Below, piece by piece: positions 154-7,970 of a stretch of 8,739 bases of DNA; position 1 is the stretch's first letter, and each line of letters opens with the position of its first letter. The notes beneath the pieces were generated by a model. That model was not told the origin of the DNA. It saw only the letters and a list, made by a program, of their open reading frames with translations, and made no database searches. Location of the stretch: NCBI GenBank assembly GCA_030592105.1, contig JAUVKE010000091.1:1-8739 (forward strand), written 5' to 3'. A program made the position numbers and the translations under genes. This DNA is from Desulfobacteraceae bacterium (GTDB lineage Bacteria > Desulfobacterota > Desulfobacteria > Desulfobacterales > BuS5).

Positions 154-1158
154 GTGCATGATTCCACCCCCGCTCTGTTTGGCCTTATTATAGCTGAACT
201 AAATATTGACTTGCAAAAGAAAGCCTGGGAGCTTTATGTTACAATGAAATTCAATAGCAAAGAGGGTGGGACGAGTAAACTTTTTGCCTGGAAACTCGTT
301 ATATGTATATACAAGCAAGATAAGAGAGCTAATCTTAATGAAGGCAAAATCGCTTATTTCCCTGGCATTACGCAAAAAAGAGGCATAAAACCTGTTAGTC
401 ATGATGTTTGTGATTATATGCCCGGCATCGGGATAAGGTGTGAGATTGGCGGACATGAAATTCTGGTTGGCAGCGGAAAGCTAATGAATAAATTTTCTGT
501 AGCGCCTGATGAAGTAAAAAGACAGCTTGAAAAAATGAAAAAGTTTGGACTTACCATAGTTTTTATTGCAAAAGATAATGAGCTGGCAGGTATTCTTGGG
601 TTTGCCAACCATCAGCGCCCTGGTGTGGACAGGGTGCTTCAATTTTTTGAAAATGACGGTGTTAATGAAATTGCCATGGTTACTGGTGATTCCAAATATA
701 CAGCACTCGATTTGTCAGAAAGGCTTAATATCAAGAAGTGTTATTATTCTGTTATGCCTGAAGAAAAGGCAAATATCATTCGTGAACTGAGAAAGGATGG
801 AAGCAAAATTTTGATGGTTGGTGACGGGATAAATGATGCCTTGGCGCTGGCAGAGGCGGATATCGGTATCGCCATGGGTACAGGCGGTTCTGAAGTTGCC
901 ATTGAAGCGGCTGATATCGCCCTTGTGGGGGACGATATCAATGGGCTCATATATATTCGCTCTTTAAGTCATGCCACAATCAGAATAGTACATCAGAATT
1001 TTTGGATCGCCACAGGGTCAAATCTTGTTGGTGTAATTTTGGGTGCGATGGGTATTTTGTCTCCTGTTATGGCCGGCCTTATTCATATTACCCATACTGC
1101 TGGTATTCTGGCAAATTCAGGAAGGCTTTTATTTTATGAAGAACCGCCGGTATCATGA
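154..1158 (+). pseudogene. N-terminally truncated P1B-type metal ATPase (C-terminal fragment)
   Basis: The open frame starts at a GTG with no good Shine-Dalgarno and encodes 334 aa. Only residues from about 72 onward look like a P1B ATPase: the second half of the nucleotide-binding domain (YMPGIGIRCEIGGHEILVGS, 88-107), the P-domain TGDS (177-180), the hinge GDGINDALAL (223-232) and two final membrane helices ending in HTAGILANSGRLL (314-326). Missing are membrane helices 1-6, the TGES actuator loop, the metal-site motif, DKTGT and the HP motif, so it cannot pump. The hinge has Leu where the family normally has Pro (GDGxNDxP), and the usual Asp before RP is Asn (ANHQRPG). Residues 1-70 resemble nothing I recognise and probably come from the joined upstream DNA. 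The C-terminal tail resembles that of the complete ATPase downstream, so this is probably a decayed P1B-6-like paralogue of the same cluster. Confidence 0.75.
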
Positions 1159-1180: not shown

Positions 1181-1513
1181 ATGGATTTAGATTTGTTTCA
1201 AGACCTGCGCAGGCATTTTACTATTATTCATCATATTCCGGGAAGAATGAGAATTAAATTCGATGCAAAAATTATTGCAAATCCTGTTATAAAAAAATTT
1301 ATAAACAAGGAGAATGATTCATTAAATACAATATATTCTATTATTCCGGGGGCTAAAAAAATCAGGTTTAATCTTTGGGCACGTTCAATTATAGTTGAAT
1401 ATGATAAAACATATATTAAACCTGAGTTGATAAAAGAGTTATTTATAACCGACGATACAAACCGCATTAAGGCTATTGTTAACGATTTTACAGTTCTGGA
1501 AAAAACAAGTTAA
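1181..1513 (+). CDS. HMA-like domain protein without CxxC (FezC-type candidate)
   Basis: This is a 110-aa protein with one beta-alpha-beta-type fold. It opens with IIHHIPGRMRIKF (15-27), followed by a helix, a second strand pair around AKKIRFNLWARSIIVEYD (58-75), and a final helix with KPELIKELF. The pattern fits the HMA_2-like, heavy-metal-associated family often found next to P1B ATPases. It has no cysteines, so it has no classical CxxC metal site. The N-terminal domain of the complete ATPase downstream carries the same IIHxxxxRxRxxx signature, which suggests a docking or regulatory role rather than copper-style chaperoning. The start is set by AGAGG at 1171-1175, five bases before the ATG. 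The gene lies 22 bp after the truncated ATPase and 22 bp before the Q/P-rich gene. In ferrosome clusters an HMA-domain Fez protein has been described; equivalence is inferred. Confidence 0.65.
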   Translation: MDLDLFQDLRRHFTIIHHIPGRMRIKFDAKIIANPVIKKFINKENDSLNTIYSIIPGAKKIRFNLWARSIIVEYDKTYIKPELIKELFITDDTNRIKAIVNDFTVLEKTS

Positions 1514-1535: not shown

Positions 1536-2435
1536 ATGCAAAATATGCAGAAGAATGATGGTACGGGGACGTCAGAGCCTGATTCATGCTCTGAAAGCAG
1601 CCATGAACAGACTGAAGGTCGCAACCCAAACGAACAGCCCATATCATCCGGAGGTTCTCCGAATATGGGCAATGAAACTTTTGTTAATAATGGATATAAC
1701 AGTTATCAAGGGATACCTCAAAACAGTATGGATCAGCCCCGACAGAGTCCACAACAGCCATTCACAGGTCAAGCCGGTTCAGGTTCTGTGTTCAGAACCG
1801 CAGGGGGGCAGGAAGGTGTTCAGAATGCATATGATGTTCCCCATTATACGTCGGAAGGATATATCCTTGGAAGACCACAAGAAGTAAATAATCCTCAGAC
1901 AGCCGGAAATATTCAGGGCAGCAGCCAGGCTCCGCTGCCTAATGGTTTTCAAGGAACAGTTTCTGGTACATATCAGCAAGTGCCGCCGCAAATGCAACCA
2001 CAAATGCCGCCGCAGATGCAGCCACAAGGCATCTATAACCAGGTTCCACCAAATCCTCAACCCCAAAATATTTACCAGCAGAATCCTGCCCAGCCTGTTT
2101 TTCAGCAAAATCCATATAACAGGCAATATGTGCCTCCTTATCCATATGGGCAACAACCGCCGCCTGGAGAACAATCCGGTGAAGGAGAAAAAAAGCACGG
2201 TCAGATTGTTGATGTTGTAAATGGTATTATTAACGGAGAAACCCCTGATATACCAAAATTAATCAGCGTGTTTGAAAGTATTGACACTCAGTTTTGGAAA
2301 GGCGCTGTAATAGGAGCTGTGCTTGTACTTGTCGTAACTAACGATACTGTGAAAAAAACTATTGGAGATGCACTCTCCAGCGTTATGGGAAAAGCATCCG
2401 GAACTGAAAATGAAAAGGGAGAAAAAAATGTCTGA
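1536..2435 (+). CDS. Q/P/N-rich low-complexity protein with C-terminal membrane helix
   Basis: This 299-aa protein has no known enzymatic domain. Residues 1-220 are low-complexity, rich in Gln, Pro, Asn, Ser, Gly and Tyr, and almost certainly disordered. They include a tandem PPQMQPQM / PPQMQPQG repeat at about 150-164. A short conserved-looking segment (GQIVDVVNGIINGETPDIP, 222-240) precedes one hydrophobic helix, FWKGAVIGAVLVLVV (253-267), and a basic/acidic tail. The helix block [FY]xKG...LV..N..V...I recurs in the shorter gene at 2864-3232, so the two are paralogous in their anchors. AAGGAG at 1522-1527 lies eight bases before the ATG. The 3' end overlaps the next gene by 8 bp (ATGTCTGA), which points to translational coupling with the MamC-like gene. 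A membrane-anchored scaffold or coat for an iron vesicle is inferred from context only. Confidence 0.7.
   Translation: MQNMQKNDGTGTSEPDSCSESSHEQTEGRNPNEQPISSGGSPNMGNETFVNNGYNSYQGIPQNSMDQPRQSPQQPFTGQAGSGSVFRTAGGQEGVQNAYDVPHYTSEGYILGRPQEVNNPQTAGNIQGSSQAPLPNGFQGTVSGTYQQVPPQMQPQMPPQMQPQGIYNQVPPNPQPQNIYQQNPAQPVFQQNPYNRQYVPPYPYGQQPPPGEQSGEGEKKHGQIVDVVNGIINGETPDIPKLISVFESIDTQFWKGAVIGAVLVLVVTNDTVKKTIGDALSSVMGKASGTENEKGEKNV
1983..2030 (+). repeat. 24-bp tandem repeat inside the Q/P-rich gene
   Basis: Two adjacent 24-bp units (1983-2006 and 2007-2030) both begin CCGCCGCA and differ at a few bases, mostly silent A/G third positions plus the last codon. They encode PPQMQPQM and PPQMQPQG. The repeat lies in frame, so copy-number change would lengthen or shorten the disordered region without breaking the gene. 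Confidence 0.8.
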
Positions 2436-2835
2436 TCAAATAAAAACTCAGCCTGTTTCTTTAGTACCAAGAGCTTTTTTTGGTATGGGTTGCGTGGGAG
2501 CTGTTATAGGCGCAGCATCTGCTGCGGCAAAGAATATTCCTCTGGTAAAAAATAATGAAATCAAGCGAACTGAAGCCATTAAAAATGTATTAAAAGAATC
2601 CGCAGGTGTCGGTCTTGCAACGGCTGCTGCAACGGCCGTTGTAGGAACTGTTGCGCCTCGAAGCGGGGTTTTTTCTATTCTGGGATTTACAGCAGTTGCT
2701 ACAGGAGCAAAAATGCTTTGGGATAAAGCGAGCTCTTCCGATAAAACCTTCCAGCAGGTGATAACGTCCGAGGTCACATCAGGTGAACAAGAAGAAGTTA
2801 TAAAAGAAAAAACAGCAGATAAGAAAAATAAATAA
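2428..2835 (+). CDS. MamC/Mms13-like small membrane protein
   Basis: This is a 135-aa protein. The start is placed at the ATG at 2428, where AGGGAG (2416-2421) gives a 6-nt spacing; longer in-frame starts lie inside the preceding gene. A Gly/Ala-rich first helix (GMGCVGAVIGAASAAA, 19-34) is followed by a charged stretch (KNNEIKRTEAIKNVLKE, 41-57), a second hydrophobic stretch (GVGLATAAATAVVG, 60-73), a third (FSILGFTAVATGAKMLWDK, 82-100) and a Lys/Glu-rich tail. From memory, magnetosome protein MamC has the same layout, with AKN after the first helix, a TEA-containing charged loop, KEAAGAGLATA, and AAKYAWD at the end; here the matching pieces are AKN, TEA, KESAGVGLATA and AKMLWD. The MamC loop contacts magnetite and influences crystal size. 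The loop here has Glu44, Glu49 and Glu57. A role at an iron-containing vesicle membrane fits the neighbours. The similarity was judged by eye, so orthology is not claimed. Confidence 0.7.
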   Translation: MSDQIKTQPVSLVPRAFFGMGCVGAVIGAASAAAKNIPLVKNNEIKRTEAIKNVLKESAGVGLATAAATAVVGTVAPRSGVFSILGFTAVATGAKMLWDKASSSDKTFQQVITSEVTSGEQEEVIKEKTADKKNK

Positions 2836-3286: not shown

Positions 3287-3502
3287 ATGAAGAAAAAAAT
3301 TATTGAAAATAAAAACATGTCCATCGAAGATAAAAAAAAATATGCAAAGGTGGGAATGACCGTATCTATGGGTGTATTGGCGGCAACAGGGTTTGTGCAG
3401 GGAAAGGGAGCAAAAACCCTGCATATCTGGTCGGGAGCAGCACTTATCGGATTTTCACTGTGGCATCATATGCTTTATCAACCCAAAGCCAAAGCTAAAT
3501 AG
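3287..3502 (+). CDS. Small two-helix membrane protein with conserved-looking histidines
   Basis: This 71-aa protein starts at ATG 3287. A GTG at 3263 in the same frame would add eight residues, but no Shine-Dalgarno is well placed for it; GGAGGT (3265-3270) lies 16 nt before the ATG, which is long. After a Lys-rich N-terminus come two hydrophobic segments (about 22-37 and 45-59). The second carries TLHIWSGAALIGFSLWHHML, with His46, His60 and His61. A His-xx-Ser-Gly then His layout in a membrane helix resembles small b-type heme or DUF4405-like proteins, so heme or metal binding is possible but unproven. It is followed 18 bp later by the ATPase gene. Small membrane proteins of this kind accompany P1B-6 ATPases in fez-type clusters, which makes it a plausible member. 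Confidence 0.6.
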   Translation: MKKKIIENKNMSIEDKKKYAKVGMTVSMGVLAATGFVQGKGAKTLHIWSGAALIGFSLWHHMLYQPKAKAK

Positions 3503-3520
3503 GCGTACATAGATCTTATT

Positions 3521-5608
3521 ATGGGAAGTAATTCATCAGCAAAAAATATTCGTATTATCCATGAAGTTTCCAGCAGAATAAGAGTTTATTGCGCTGCCTT
3601 GCATGATCCGGAGCTTGATCCTGTATATCTTGAGGCTGTTATCAGAAATGTTTCAGGTGTTGAGCATGTTCGCATTAATACTCGAGCGGCCTGCATAGTT
3701 GTTTCTTATGACGGGAATACAGCTACCAAAAAAAAGATTTTGTCATTTATAGAAAATATTCCTGAAGAAGTATATCAGCCTGAATCTTTATCTGAACAAT
3801 CAACAGATCTTGCAAATGTTGTGTCCAGAGCAGCGGCGGCTCTTTTAACGCCATATATTCCAGGTTTTTTTAGAGCGCCTGCCAGCTGGATTTTATCCAT
3901 TCCTGTTCTGCTGGAGGGTATTGACAAACTTATTACTAAAGGGATTAAAGTGGAAGCGCTTGATGCTTCGGCTGTTGGGTTTTCACTTTTACGCAAAGAT
4001 TTTGTTACTGCTAATTCCGTTGTTGCAATGCTGGCGCTGGGTAGTTATATGGAGCAGCTTTCCGATCAAAAAACAACAGCTCTTTTGACCCGTCTTCTCC
4101 GTCCCCAGATTAAACATGTGTGGGTGGAAAGAGATGGTGCAGAGACCAAAATAGAACCTGAGCAGCTTGTCACAGGGGATATTATAATCTGCGGGACAGG
4201 CGAGCTTGTGCCTGCGGACGGAAGAGTAATCGAAGGAGATGCACTGGCAAACTTAAGTTCCATAACTGGTGAGTCAGTTCCTGTTCATATCAAAAAAGGT
4301 GATGAAATATTGTCGGGGGCTGTGCTTGAAGAAGGCCGTGTGAAAATTGAAGCTTTACAAGTAGGGGCAGAAACCAGTATGGCAAGAATCAGCCGTTTTC
4401 TTGAAAATTCACTCCGTTATAAGTCTAAATCCCAGACAGAAAGTTATAAGCTGTCTGACAAGCTGGTTCCTATAACTTTTGGCCTGTGGATAGGATTATA
4501 TCTTTTGACCAGAGATATTAACCGGGCGGCAGCGGTTCTTACAGTAGACTATTCATGTGCAATAAAGCTTGCCACTCCTGTGGCTGTCAAAGTGGCTATG
4601 TATACAGCAGCCAGGGAAGGGGTTCTTCTTAAAGGTTCAGGTGCAATTGATTCTCTGGCGCGGGTTGATACTATTGTTTTTGACAAAACCGGAACATTAA
4701 CCAAAGGTATTCTGGAAGTTGTTGATATTGTTTCCTTTGGAAAAATGACTTCTGATGAACTTCTATCCCTTGCTGCATGCGCTGAAGAACATTATACACA
4801 TCCGGTGGCAAATGCCGTTGTAAGGGCTGCTTTAATGCGAAAGCTTGATTTCCCTTCAATTGGTCAGGTCGATTTTATAGTGGCACATGGAGTATCGGCA
4901 TATGTTGGAAATGAGCGTGTTCTTGTTGGAAGTCGTCATTTTATCAATGATGATGAAAAAATAGATTGTGGCAAATCTGACGAGATTGCAGCATCAATGC
5001 GGTCAAAAGGGGAAACTGTTCTTTTTGTGGCACGTGGCAAAATTCTTGAAGGTGTGATATCTTTAAGAGATGCTTTAAGAGATGAAGCGAATAATCTGCT
5101 TTTAAAATTAAAGAATAATGGTATAAAAAAAATAATAGTTTTAACAGGAGACCATCGGGAAACCGCCAAAGCCGTTGCCCAAAAAATTGATGCTATTGAT
5201 GAAATCTATTGGGAACTTAATCCTGAAGATAAAGCCAATATAATTAAAAAACTGCAGGATCAGGGGTGTTTTCTTGCTTTTGTGGGAGATGGTGTTAATG
5301 ATGCGCCTGCTCTGGTTACAGCAAATGTGGGAATTTGTCTGCCGTCCGGAGCGGAACTGGCTAAAGAATCATCCCAGGTTCTTCTTTTAAAGGATGATTT
5401 GAATCTGTTGTATACAGCCAGGAAAATTGCCTGTGATACACAGCAGACAATAAAACGATGTTTTAATTCGACAGTGGGAATCAATACGTCTATCTTGCTT
5501 CTTGCCACCAGCGGATTGCTTCAGCCATTTGCTTCAGCTCTCCTTCATAATGCAGGTACTTTGGGAATTTTAACTTATGCAGTTTTGTCAAGATCAAGAA
5601 AGCCATAA
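3521..5608 (+). CDS. fezB: P1B-6-type metal-transporting ATPase (FezB-like)
   Basis: This is a complete 695-aa P-type ATPase. Residues 10-75 form an HMA-like domain without CxxC (IIHEVSSRIRVY, 12-23). Hydrophobic segments around 101-178 form the first membrane helices. The actuator loop TGES is at 249-252. The metal-site helix reads DYSCAIKLATP (343-353), an SCA motif in place of the CPC of copper pumps. DKTGT is at 388-392 (phosphorylated Asp388), HP at 427-428, TGD at 542-544 and GDGVNDAPAL at 589-598. Two final helices end in LLHNAGTLGILTYAVLSR (674-691). All catalytic residues are intact. SCA-type (P1B-6) ATPases include FezB, which is required for ferrosome formation in Desulfovibrio magneticus, Rhodopseudomonas and Shewanella; iron is the likely substrate and a vesicle membrane the likely site. 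No strong Shine-Dalgarno precedes the ATG, so it may depend on coupling to the gene 18 bp upstream. The exact metal is not proven by sequence. Confidence 0.82.
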   Translation: MGSNSSAKNIRIIHEVSSRIRVYCAALHDPELDPVYLEAVIRNVSGVEHVRINTRAACIVVSYDGNTATKKKILSFIENIPEEVYQPESLSEQSTDLANVVSRAAAALLTPYIPGFFRAPASWILSIPVLLEGIDKLITKGIKVEALDASAVGFSLLRKDFVTANSVVAMLALGSYMEQLSDQKTTALLTRLLRPQIKHVWVERDGAETKIEPEQLVTGDIIICGTGELVPADGRVIEGDALANLSSITGESVPVHIKKGDEILSGAVLEEGRVKIEALQVGAETSMARISRFLENSLRYKSKSQTESYKLSDKLVPITFGLWIGLYLLTRDINRAAAVLTVDYSCAIKLATPVAVKVAMYTAAREGVLLKGSGAIDSLARVDTIVFDKTGTLTKGILEVVDIVSFGKMTSDELLSLAACAEEHYTHPVANAVVRAALMRKLDFPSIGQVDFIVAHGVSAYVGNERVLVGSRHFINDDEKIDCGKSDEIAASMRSKGETVLFVARGKILEGVISLRDALRDEANNLLLKLKNNGIKKIIVLTGDHRETAKAVAQKIDAIDEIYWELNPEDKANIIKKLQDQGCFLAFVGDGVNDAPALVTANVGICLPSGAELAKESSQVLLLKDDLNLLYTARKIACDTQQTIKRCFNSTVGINTSILLLATSGLLQPFASALLHNAGTLGILTYAVLSRSRKP

Positions 5609-5646: not shown

Positions 5647-6378
5647 ATGTATCAAACCTTAATAAACGCTCCTTTTGAAAAATCTCTTATACTTGTCAAG
5701 GTGGCAGACAATTCCCTTGCGTCGCGTTTCAGAAATATGGGAATCTTTGAAGGCATGGAACTGATACGTGTTAATGAGGATGTTAAACTTTATCCTGTAA
5801 GGGTTGAAGGTAGTAAAGGGGTTGCAATTATCGGAGGCGGAATGTCATCCAAGATCATTGTGCGTTTAGATGATGGTCGTAAATCTTCCTTAAGTGAAAT
5901 GGAACCTGACGAAACAGGGTTTATTATAGGATTAACAGGCGGTTCAGGACTTTCCAATGCATTAAAAGTGTTAGGCTTTGAAAAGAACAAAAGGATTACG
6001 TTTATCCGCAGGCTTCCTCCCATGGAATATATTGCATTTATTGAAAAAAAAGGTAGAATTCGTCTTACCGAGAGCATGGCGGCCAAAATTTGGGGTGAAA
6101 TGGATAAAAAAATGTGTCAATTTAATTTCGCTCAAAAAAAGAAAAAATTTTTTGTGAAATCGATTCTTGGAGGTCAGAATGCCCTTGAAATGCTTCATTC
6201 CCGAGGTATTGAAACAGGAATAGTTCTTATCCTGGAAGGCGTAACACCAGCCAGAAATTTTTACATGTGCAAGAACAACCCGATCATTGTTTCCACTAAA
6301 GACGGGTTAAGATTATTTTTGAAAGAAAAAGATTGTGAACAAATTTTTATTAAAGAAAAAATAGACACCCCTCATTAA
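5647..6378 (+). CDS. Triple FeoA-like SH3-domain protein
   Basis: This 243-aa protein contains three consecutive FeoA-like units. Unit 1 (about 14-72) is the most typical: SLASRFRNMGIFEGMELI, then YPVRVEGSKGVAIIGGGMSS, matching the FeoA pattern LxxRLxxMGIxxGxxI ... GxxxAIGxGMAxKI. Unit 2 (about 90-151) keeps GGSGLSNALKVLGFEKNKRI and a degenerate end with ESMAAKIWGE. Unit 3 (about 167-227) keeps LGGQNALEMLHSRGIETGI. FeoA normally is a single domain of about 75 aa that binds the cytoplasmic part of the ferrous transporter FeoB; no FeoB is seen here. AGGA at 5636-5639 lies seven bases before the ATG, and the gene starts 38 bp after the ATPase. Acting as a cytoplasmic regulator or docking factor for the iron ATPase is inferred from position. 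Confidence 0.72.
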   Translation: MYQTLINAPFEKSLILVKVADNSLASRFRNMGIFEGMELIRVNEDVKLYPVRVEGSKGVAIIGGGMSSKIIVRLDDGRKSSLSEMEPDETGFIIGLTGGSGLSNALKVLGFEKNKRITFIRRLPPMEYIAFIEKKGRIRLTESMAAKIWGEMDKKMCQFNFAQKKKKFFVKSILGGQNALEMLHSRGIETGIVLILEGVTPARNFYMCKNNPIIVSTKDGLRLFLKEKDCEQIFIKEKIDTPH

Positions 6379-6540: not shown

Positions 6541-6990
6541 ATGGTTGATAATTTATCTAAAAAAATCAGGCAAATAAGAGAGAGATATCAACTCTCCATG
6601 GCACAATTCGGCTCAATGGTAGGAGCACCTGCAACATCAGTTAAAAGATGGGAGGAAGATGTAAAACCTCAGGAACGTTTCTTTTTTCAAATTATACTGG
6701 TACTCGGCTTAATAGAAAATTCCGATGAAATATTTTTTGATCTTGGGCGTCAAGGAATAAAACTTAATAAAAAGCACTGGGACGGGTTTGCAAATCTTGT
6801 TAAAGATGTAAGTAACAGTCTTGATATTGCAAAAGAAGCGGAGCTCCCTGAGCCGGAAATAGACACTGCCCTGATATCCGGAATAAAGGGACTGCTTGCC
6901 TTGATTGCAGGAGCATTCGCAGTAAAAAATCTGCTTGGTAACAGGCTTTATCCTGTGCTTGCTACAAAAATTGCTAATTTGTTAAAATAG
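6541..6990 (+). CDS. Xre-family HTH protein with hydrophobic C-terminal tail
   Basis: This 149-aa protein has a helix-turn-helix domain at residues 6-57: KKIRQIRERYQLSMAQFGSM, then GAPATSVKRWEEDVKPQE. This is the Cro/C1 (Xre) pattern with the usual Trp-Glu after the recognition helix. Residues 60-105 are a charged linker. Residues 110-145 are hydrophobic and Gly/Ala-rich (ISGIKGLLALIAGAFAVKNL), which is unusual for a soluble repressor and could insert into or lie on the membrane. The domain begins right at the ATG, so the start is well set, but no clear Shine-Dalgarno precedes it. It is first in a three-gene unit. Autoregulation through the AT-rich promoter is plausible. Its targets are unknown. 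Confidence 0.75.
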   Translation: MVDNLSKKIRQIRERYQLSMAQFGSMVGAPATSVKRWEEDVKPQERFFFQIILVLGLIENSDEIFFDLGRQGIKLNKKHWDGFANLVKDVSNSLDIAKEAELPEPEIDTALISGIKGLLALIAGAFAVKNLLGNRLYPVLATKIANLLK

Positions 6991-7008: not shown

Positions 7009-7776
7009 TTGCCGGAAATTAAACTAAGAGAGCCGGATATTGATTTAATACCCCTGATTAAGAAATGTAATAATGATGAATTGGATAACCTGGTTGGATA
7101 CATTACAAAAAAAGGGCGTGTATCATCACAGATACAAACCACTAAGGTATATAAAAAACATAACCCTGATCATATTAAGTATGCAAATGAGATTGCAGCC
7201 GAAATTCAAAAATTTGGCGGAAATACAATCGCCAATATAATGCGAGGCGGCACAGGTGTATACTACAAGGAGATCGTTTGCAATGTAGCAGATAAACTGA
7301 AAATCAATTATAACAAAAAACAGGCTATAGATTTTATAGAGCAGCAAATTCTTTTAAAAGTTCTTGAAAAATCTTGGGAAAAGATGAGTATAGACGAAAA
7401 AGAGGCACTGTTAAAAGGGATAATGGCAGACACAAAAAATATAAACGGATATCATGAATTCCCCATGGCAATCTTACAATCTGCAATAATTGCCGGTGGA
7501 GGTTATGTCTCGTACAGGCTGTCGTTGATTGTGGCAAATGCCATCGCTAAAACAACATTGCAAAGAGGGGTCTCTTTTACAACCAGTGCAGCTTTGTCGC
7601 GCTGGGTTACAATTTTTGCCGGAGCAGTGGGGTGGGGAATAACTGCTCTATGGGCGCTGTTTGATGTATCCGGACCGGCATATCGTGTGACTGTGCCTTG
7701 TGTTTTGCATATAGCCATGCTTAGACAACTACATATGCTAAAAAATGACGTAATAAAACCTATAAAAAGGAGGTGA
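7009..7776 (+). CDS. YaaW/UPF0174-family membrane-associated protein
   Basis: This 255-aa protein begins with TTG, supported by AAGGAA at 6995-7000 and an 8-nt spacing. The N-terminus (8-40, PDIDLIPLIKKCNNDELDNL) matches the DUF3944 motif that opens the YaaW family. The central signature EIQKFGGNTIANIMRGGTGV, followed by YYKEI and KLKI (65-99), is the most typical part of UPF0174 proteins such as Escherichia coli YaaW. The C-terminal half has hydrophobic stretches (about 153-180 and 199-217) and the family-like GPAYRVTVPCVLHIAMLRQ (222-240). Length is close to the family norm and all parts are present. The biochemical function of the family is not established. It sits 18 bp after the HTH gene. 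Its last codons contain the Shine-Dalgarno (AAGGAGGTGA) of the next gene, so the two are probably coupled. Confidence 0.8.
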   Translation: MPEIKLREPDIDLIPLIKKCNNDELDNLVGYITKKGRVSSQIQTTKVYKKHNPDHIKYANEIAAEIQKFGGNTIANIMRGGTGVYYKEIVCNVADKLKINYNKKQAIDFIEQQILLKVLEKSWEKMSIDEKEALLKGIMADTKNINGYHEFPMAILQSAIIAGGGYVSYRLSLIVANAIAKTTLQRGVSFTTSAALSRWVTIFAGAVGWGITALWALFDVSGPAYRVTVPCVLHIAMLRQLHMLKNDVIKPIKRR

Positions 7777-7781
7777 ACTAA

Positions 7782-7970
7782 ATGCTTAGAATAATTATTT
7801 ATTTTGCGGCAGGATTTGCAACTGCAAAAATTTTTTCAGGAACTGGCAGTATTGAAAAGATAAAAAAAGCAGCAAAGGAGAATACTAAAAAGATTAAAAA
7901 TACATCAAAAAAAATGGCTCAGGCTGTTAAAGAAGAATTTGGTAAAGAAAAGGTTGAAAAACTGCAATAG
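7782..7970 (+). CDS. 62-aa protein: N-terminal helix and Lys-rich tail
   Basis: The product has one hydrophobic segment (IIIYFAAGFATAKIF, 4-18) followed by a strongly basic, probably helical tail with Lys/Ala/Glu spacing (KKAAKENTKKIKNTSKKM, 28-45). The layout is like YtxH-type small anchored proteins, but no family can be assigned with confidence. The start is certain: AAGGAGGTGA at 7767-7776 is a near-perfect Shine-Dalgarno that overlaps the yaaW-type stop codon, with the ATG five bases later. The stop codon sits at the base of the terminator stem. It is the last gene of the three-gene unit and may be a membrane partner of the YaaW-family protein. Confidence 0.65.
   Translation: MLRIIIYFAAGFATAKIFSGTGSIEKIKKAAKENTKKIKNTSKKMAQAVKEEFGKEKVEKLQ

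Follow-up and report, generated by a model that had tools for sequence, protein, structure and literature searches.

Why does a relative of the magnetosome protein MamC lie among genes of another iron organelle? The question is raised by an 8,739-nucleotide stretch of DNA from a Desulfobacteraceae bacterium (contig JAUVKE010000091.1; hereafter the window), in which an earlier note had recognized a MamC/Mms13-like protein with ferrosome-like neighbours. The note proposed either an evolutionary link between the two organelle types or a MamC-type loop that acts on other iron minerals. Magnetosomes and ferrosomes are usually regarded as separate inventions. In the window the genes run in the order CPC P-ATPase, HMA2 protein, Gln-rich protein, MamC-like protein, second Gln-rich protein, FezC-like protein, P1B-6 ATPase (FezB-like) and FeoA (Table 1). 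The MamC-like ORF starts with the ATG at 2428 and stops at 2835; AAGGGAG lies 5′ of it, and the last 8 nt of the upstream gene, stop codon included, lie inside it. According to its hydropathy profile, the protein consists of two hydrophobic stretches separated by a charged loop, followed by a K/E-rich tail.

Table 1. Features of the gene cluster in the window, with the evidence for each.
Feature	Position	Strand	Evidence
CPC-type P-ATPase, C-terminal part	376..1158	+	77% identity to residues 461-717 of the 729-aa L005 protein
Stand-alone HMA_2 protein	1181..1513	+	PF19991, E 1.4e-6, 28.8 bits (slightly below the cut-off of 30)
Gln/Pro-rich protein with one hydrophobic C-terminal segment	1536..2435	+	Conserved in the cluster
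MamC-like protein, 135 aa	2428..2835	+	NF038051 match, hhalign against MamC, hydropathy profile
Segment aligned to the 21-residue magnetite-interacting component of MamC	2548..2610	+	Alignment: VKNNEIKRTEAIKNVLKESAG
Second, shorter Gln/Pro-rich protein with one hydrophobic segment	2864..3232	+	Conserved in the cluster
FezC-like small membrane protein, conserved His (H..SG.AL.GFS.WH)	3287..3502	+	33.5 bits to the L105 FezC candidate
P1B-type ATPase with N-terminal HMA_2 and DYSCAIK (P1B-6, FezB-like)	3521..5608	+	36% identity over 608 aligned columns to the L105 FezB candidate
FeoA-domain protein	5647..6378	+	PF04023, E 1.7e-15

The homology to MamC extends over the whole domain. The NCBIfam model for MamC (NF038051) matches the ORF with E = 7.5e-16 and 58.2 bits, residues 17-101 falling on profile positions 9-92 of 97, and the short pieces singled out in the earlier note (AKN, TEA, KESAGVGLATA and AKMLWD) align with AKN, TEA, KETIGAGLATA and AKYAWD in P0074, a named MamC. 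The profile-profile comparison (hhalign) that the note had called for gave a probability of 98.5% and E = 3.8e-15 when A1, the window protein plus 19 close relatives (20 rows), was set against 15 named MamCs (A4), and 99.3% and E = 2.4e-20 with a wider set (A2, 35 rows). The A1 profile alone recovered 84 of the 86 MamCs (E < 1e-3 for a nominal database of 1e6) and matched none of 172 reversed or shuffled copies at E ≤ 10. The MamC set had been gathered with a MamC query sequence whose top match was 100% identical. Searches of Pfam returned no family of weight either for the window protein or for the 15 named MamCs, and the better match to some other family that could have undone the assignment was not seen: the strongest hit of the ORF was DUF7269 (E = 0.0085, 16.6 bits, below the cut-off of 29.1). 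In the precomputed Pfam annotation of the protein database, PF26373 is assigned to 72 of 72 proteins in the set that contains P0019, P0052 and P0066, and to 85 of 86 proteins from the MamC search. Neither the window protein nor the A2 profile (best E 0.49) found a relative among solved structures, and the two AlphaFold models had low confidence (mean pLDDT 47.1 and 55.0).

A chance or convergent likeness of membrane hairpins has to be considered here, since both proteins are short and Gly/Ala-rich and the score lies under the equivalog cut-off. However, profile matches with E values of 1e-15 to 1e-20 span the loop and both hydrophobic halves, the reversed or shuffled controls gave nothing, and one or more cluster genes lie within 7 kb at 59 of the 60 places that the MamC model picked out. 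We consider this explanation, already disfavoured, highly improbable. As judged from its sequence, the product of 2428-2835 is a clear homologue of MamC, and the resemblance reported in the earlier note is real.

It is nevertheless, on the evidence of the tree, a paralogue from a separate clade and not MamC proper. Four named MamCs score 117-142 bits against NF038051, whereas the window protein does not reach the equivalog cut-off of 100 bits. A first scan of genome contigs with a narrow alignment found no relative, and a second scan found five loci. The MamC model finds matches in 13 of 395 genomes of the L005 phylum and in 42 of 199 of the L001 family, two overlapping samples to which the distribution refers. 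None of these matches is above the cut-off, and the three hit sets contain no genome with a match > 100 bits (0/13, 0/42 and 0/5). In a maximum-likelihood tree of 108 rows, one branch (support 100/99) parts 32 MamCs from 76 others, namely the window protein and 75 relatives; with few columns, several long rows and a root that was not inferred, the tree gives no direction of descent between the ferrosome-type and magnetosome lineages. Its longest branch, which attaches beside the MamC branch, belongs to an outlier locus (L084 of G540, 6082-9536) with a P1B-type ATPase, a very divergent MamC-like gene and, on the opposite strand, an HMA2-FezC-like fusion.

The NCBI label ‘magnetosome protein MamC’ is carried by P0019, P0052 and P0066, from Desulfovibrio sp. 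JC010, Maridesulfovibrio hydrothermalis and M. zosterae; P0019 and P0052 score 44.9 and 42.8 bits against NF038051 (cut-off 100). On Maridesulfovibrio-type proteins this public label misleads.

The two clades differ most visibly in the loop. The magnetite-interacting component (MIC) of MamC comprises 21 residues, with the strongest iron contacts at D14, G16 and E18, and the D14A mutation abolished the particle-size effect of MamC-MIC (available part of PMC6206293). The aligned segment of the window protein retains E10 and E18 and has a net charge of +2. The magnetite residue D14 is Asn, and the proposal that a MamC-type loop acts here on other iron minerals is not supported as it was written, though the loop may still bind mineral. 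An acidic residue occupies position 14 in 32 of 76 ferrosome-cluster-type rows versus 29 of 32 MamCs, position 13 is basic in 41 of 76 versus 3 of 32, and the mean loop charge is −0.20 versus −1.03 (p values for these comparisons disregard kinship among rows). A sharp charge switch was rejected: position 13 is basic in 71 of 73 rows of a metagenome-weighted set but in just the 41 of 76 given above when the set is genome-based. Because the shift is weaker in the latter, we describe it as a tendency only. The loop of the L003 protein, EAAVDVGKEAVGTGLATA, has the MamC form nearly intact.

These data bear on whether the protein touches mineral at all. It could be a structural or scaffold protein of the organelle membrane that makes no such contact, the hairpin and packing motifs being common to both clades and the magnetite-binding residues specific to MamC. 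This is a serious rival, because conservation between the clades falls on the hairpin, on packing of the G.GLATA type and on E18 (70 of 76 rows and 31 of 32 MamCs) rather than on D14; the positions common to both clades are mostly packing ones plus E18. It also agrees with the observation that deletion of mamC in Magnetospirillum leaves crystals without defect (available part of PMC3905215). On the other hand, the loop has kept its length and its charged nature, and L003 and some relatives come close to the MamC form. We regard a scaffold without mineral contact as a lesser, though by no means negligible, possibility.

Some genomes carry further copies. In five of them (G443, G449, G494, G575 and G580) the additional MamC-like gene lies in a small unit with HMA2 on the opposite strand. 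For the extra copies at L050, L051, L052, L053 and L054 the unit has HMA2 and a short HMA gene and adjoins the main cluster. Together with L003 these copies form one clade, of which five or all six members retain much of the acidic loop form at position 14; all six are among the rows with an acidic residue there.

The earlier note had pictured a stray MamC among ferrosome-like genes. The neighbours are indeed ferrosome-like, with FezB-like and FezC-like genes in a conserved cluster, but the gene is no stray. With the MamC model we located 60 MamC-like places in 53 genomes and counted their neighbours within 7 kb; the gene order was read by tblastn and profile searches of the relatives' loci. 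A CPC ATPase was present at 55 of these places, FezB-like and FezC-like genes at 51 each, HMA2 and the first Gln-rich gene at 50 each, the second Gln-rich gene at 49, FeoA at 45, FeoB at 21 and Fur at 18. The 19 places whose flanks reach 7 kb or more in both directions each have all three of the CPC ATPase, FezB-like and FezC-like genes. FezB-like is absent at nine places, five of which end at a downstream contig edge (G001, one of G003, G005, G450 and G564). Otherwise, G217 has FezC-like and no FezB-like gene in 7.5 kb, G176 has the second Gln-rich gene alone in 4.6 kb, the L003 copy of G003 lacks FezB-like in 6.3 kb, and the flanks of G075 (2.7 and 4.4 kb) are without any cluster gene. Maridesulfovibrio-type loci begin with the MamC-like gene, mostly beside fur. 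The MamC-like gene is a conserved member of a ferrosome-type cluster.

In the window itself the cluster is incomplete at its upstream end. Residues 1-460 of the CPC ATPase are missing, the DKTGT segment among them, and the gene is therefore probably a remnant. Homology to the L005 enzyme starts at residue 461 (window position 376), and the sequence 5′ of that point is unrelated; the break within 1-1158 is probably a deletion, an insertion or an assembly junction. Downstream of the cluster, positions 7009-7776 match Ubiq_cyt_C_chap above the Pfam cut-off (E 8.2e-9, 36.1 bits), a family that we take to include YaaW-like proteins, with an HTH gene (6541-6990) 5′ of it. A 62-aa membrane protein (7782-7970) follows. 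Its 63% identical relative in L005 (5124-5309) sits immediately upstream of the CPC ATPase, so the 62-aa protein may belong to the cluster.

Is the cluster that of a ferrosome? For comparison we used locus L105 of genome G529, which is probably Desulfovibrio magneticus RS-1. Here three adjoining genes fit fezA, fezB and fezC: they encode a membrane protein of 86 aa, an ATPase of 743 aa that carries DFSCAIK and a 146-aa fusion of an HMA2-like part with a cytochrome part. The window ATPase has the corresponding DYSCAIK together with the identity to the FezB candidate listed in Table 1, as expected of a FezB, that is, a P1B-6 ATPase. We take the SCA-type motif to be a marker of this class; it was read at 18 of 22 loci, while three had neither motif by a simple pattern and at one the CPC ATPase matched best. 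The FezC-like window protein, with its conserved His, matches the L105 FezC candidate with E 4e-8 in a single comparison, as expected of a DUF4405-like membrane cytochrome. The match of the FezC-like family (A5) to DUF4405 is weak, with 11 of 15 members at E ≤ 1 and a best value of 0.0029. In ferrosomes FezC is described as a haem-binding relative of DUF4405 (available part of PMC11334425). FezA identity was considered for two small window proteins, neither of which gave a supported match to the L105 FezA candidate, and the search of the window, including the comparison of the second Gln-rich protein with L105 FezA, identified no FezA equivalent. From the comparisons with L105 we regard the window cluster as an expanded relative of fez, with a MamC paralogue that is absent from the compact type.

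The same genes could instead serve the transport of iron or other metals at the cell membrane, under a link to Fur, with no organelle and with the MamC-like protein as a transporter subunit or assembly factor. Two P-type ATPases, HMA2 proteins, FeoA, FeoB and Fur lie close by, and the carriers are known from genes alone. However, a P1B-6 ATPase paired with a FezC-like cytochrome is what is known from ferrosome clusters (available part of PMC11334425), and both window proteins have their matches in L105. We think the transport explanation unlikely.

The carriers are sulfate-reducing bacteria and apparently not magnetic. MamK was above cut-off in none of the 53 carrier genomes, many of which are drafts; 52 of the 53, like 8 of 14 control genomes, have matches at the level of MreB. 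In the 199-genome family sample four genomes are MamK positive, none of them a carrier, a difference (0/42 carriers versus 4/157 others) that is not significant (p = 0.58). The whole-family profile gave nothing at E ≤ 10 in three of these four genomes and a match of E 0.9 in G467; none of the four, which include the MamK-positive G529 with its compact fezABC, has a credible MamC-family gene. MamC is conserved in most magnetotactic alphaproteobacteria and has two membrane helices (available part of PMC3905215).

FezC-like genes tend to accompany the MamC-like gene: the FezC-like profile matches 55 of the 199 family genomes, made up of 39 of 42 MamC-like carriers versus 16 of 157 others. At E ≤ 1e-10 it matches 39 genomes, of which 38 are carriers; the exception is the MamK-positive G467. 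That genome has a pair resembling the second Gln-rich gene and FezC (L104 6871-7659, identical to L116 17371-18159), about 17 kb from mamK and a few kb beyond the apparent magnetosome island, which places ferrosome-type genes beside magnetosome genes.

On balance we favour a model in which the product of the MamC-like gene would be integral to the membrane of a ferrosome-type iron organelle, a MamC paralogue whose lumenal loop would contact or space the mineral. The cluster would make ferrosomes, and the MamC-like protein would probably insert into the vesicle membrane as a hydrophobic hairpin, next to the FezB-like P1B-6 ATPase, predicted to move iron, and the FezC-like cytochrome, predicted to handle electrons. 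Its charged loop may point to the lumen and contact or space the stored iron mineral, and the protein may thereby help to set vesicle or particle size. The model draws on the homology to MamC, the conservation of the cluster, the P1B-6 ATPase and FezC-like pair and the presence of Fur and FeoB near some places. Against it count the Asn in place of D14 in the window, the search that identified no FezA equivalent, the weak DUF4405 match, the defect-free mamC deletion and the exceptions G075, G217, G176 and the L003 copy. The compact L105 fez, which is without a MamC-family gene, also counts against it and suggests that the MamC-like protein is dispensable for ferrosomes in general.

Of the evolutionary connection proposed in the earlier note, one part stands: homology to MamC together with ferrosome-type neighbours links the two organelle types at the level of the family. 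The window protein being MamC itself does not, given its place in the paralogous clade. The data suggest that magnetosomes and ferrosomes have a component in common, and a membrane-protein family found in both is a concrete evolutionary link. More speculatively, and we would call it possible rather than probable, MamC may have arisen in ferrosome clusters and been adopted by proteobacterial magnetosomes, where it then evolved its acidic magnetite-binding loop, with the expanded Desulfobacterota ferrosome system carrying its sister lineage. If so, both bacterial iron organelles would own one membrane protein by descent, whose loop first served a non-magnetic iron store and was later adapted to magnetite. 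The family also provides a comparison set for telling the structural from the magnetite-serving parts of MamC, and it marks an expanded ferrosome-type cluster that is testable in culturable Maridesulfovibrio species. In titles and the first lines of abstracts of the papers listed we found no report of a link between MamC and ferrosome clusters, although Grant et al. (2022) might mention one. The available part of PMC12713370 deals with MamC and ferrosomes and reports no link between them; PMC12748827 mentions ferrosomes and not MamC.

Compared with MamC/Mms13 (NF038051; PF26373), the window protein has the same helix - charged loop - helix plan over its whole length, with the GA..GG, AKN, EA, KE..G.GLATA and K..WD blocks in common. 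It differs in its score below the cut-off, its separate clade and the absence of D14, and its gene is flanked by ferrosome-type genes instead of mamGFD, in carriers without MamK above cut-off. With the compact fezABC of L105 the window cluster has in common the P1B-6 ATPase adjoining a FezC-like cytochrome and the HMA2 domains. In contrast to the three genes there, it has about eight, adding the MamC paralogue, two Gln-rich membrane proteins, a second (CPC) ATPase and FeoA; its FezC-like protein has no fused HMA2 part, and FezA has no identified counterpart. Rhodopseudomonas palustris and Shewanella putrefaciens have six-gene fez operons with a FezB-type ATPase as the core. The same holds for the ATPase of the Clostridioides difficile fez system (available part of PMC12574912), and it is this FezB-type core that the window cluster has in common with all three.
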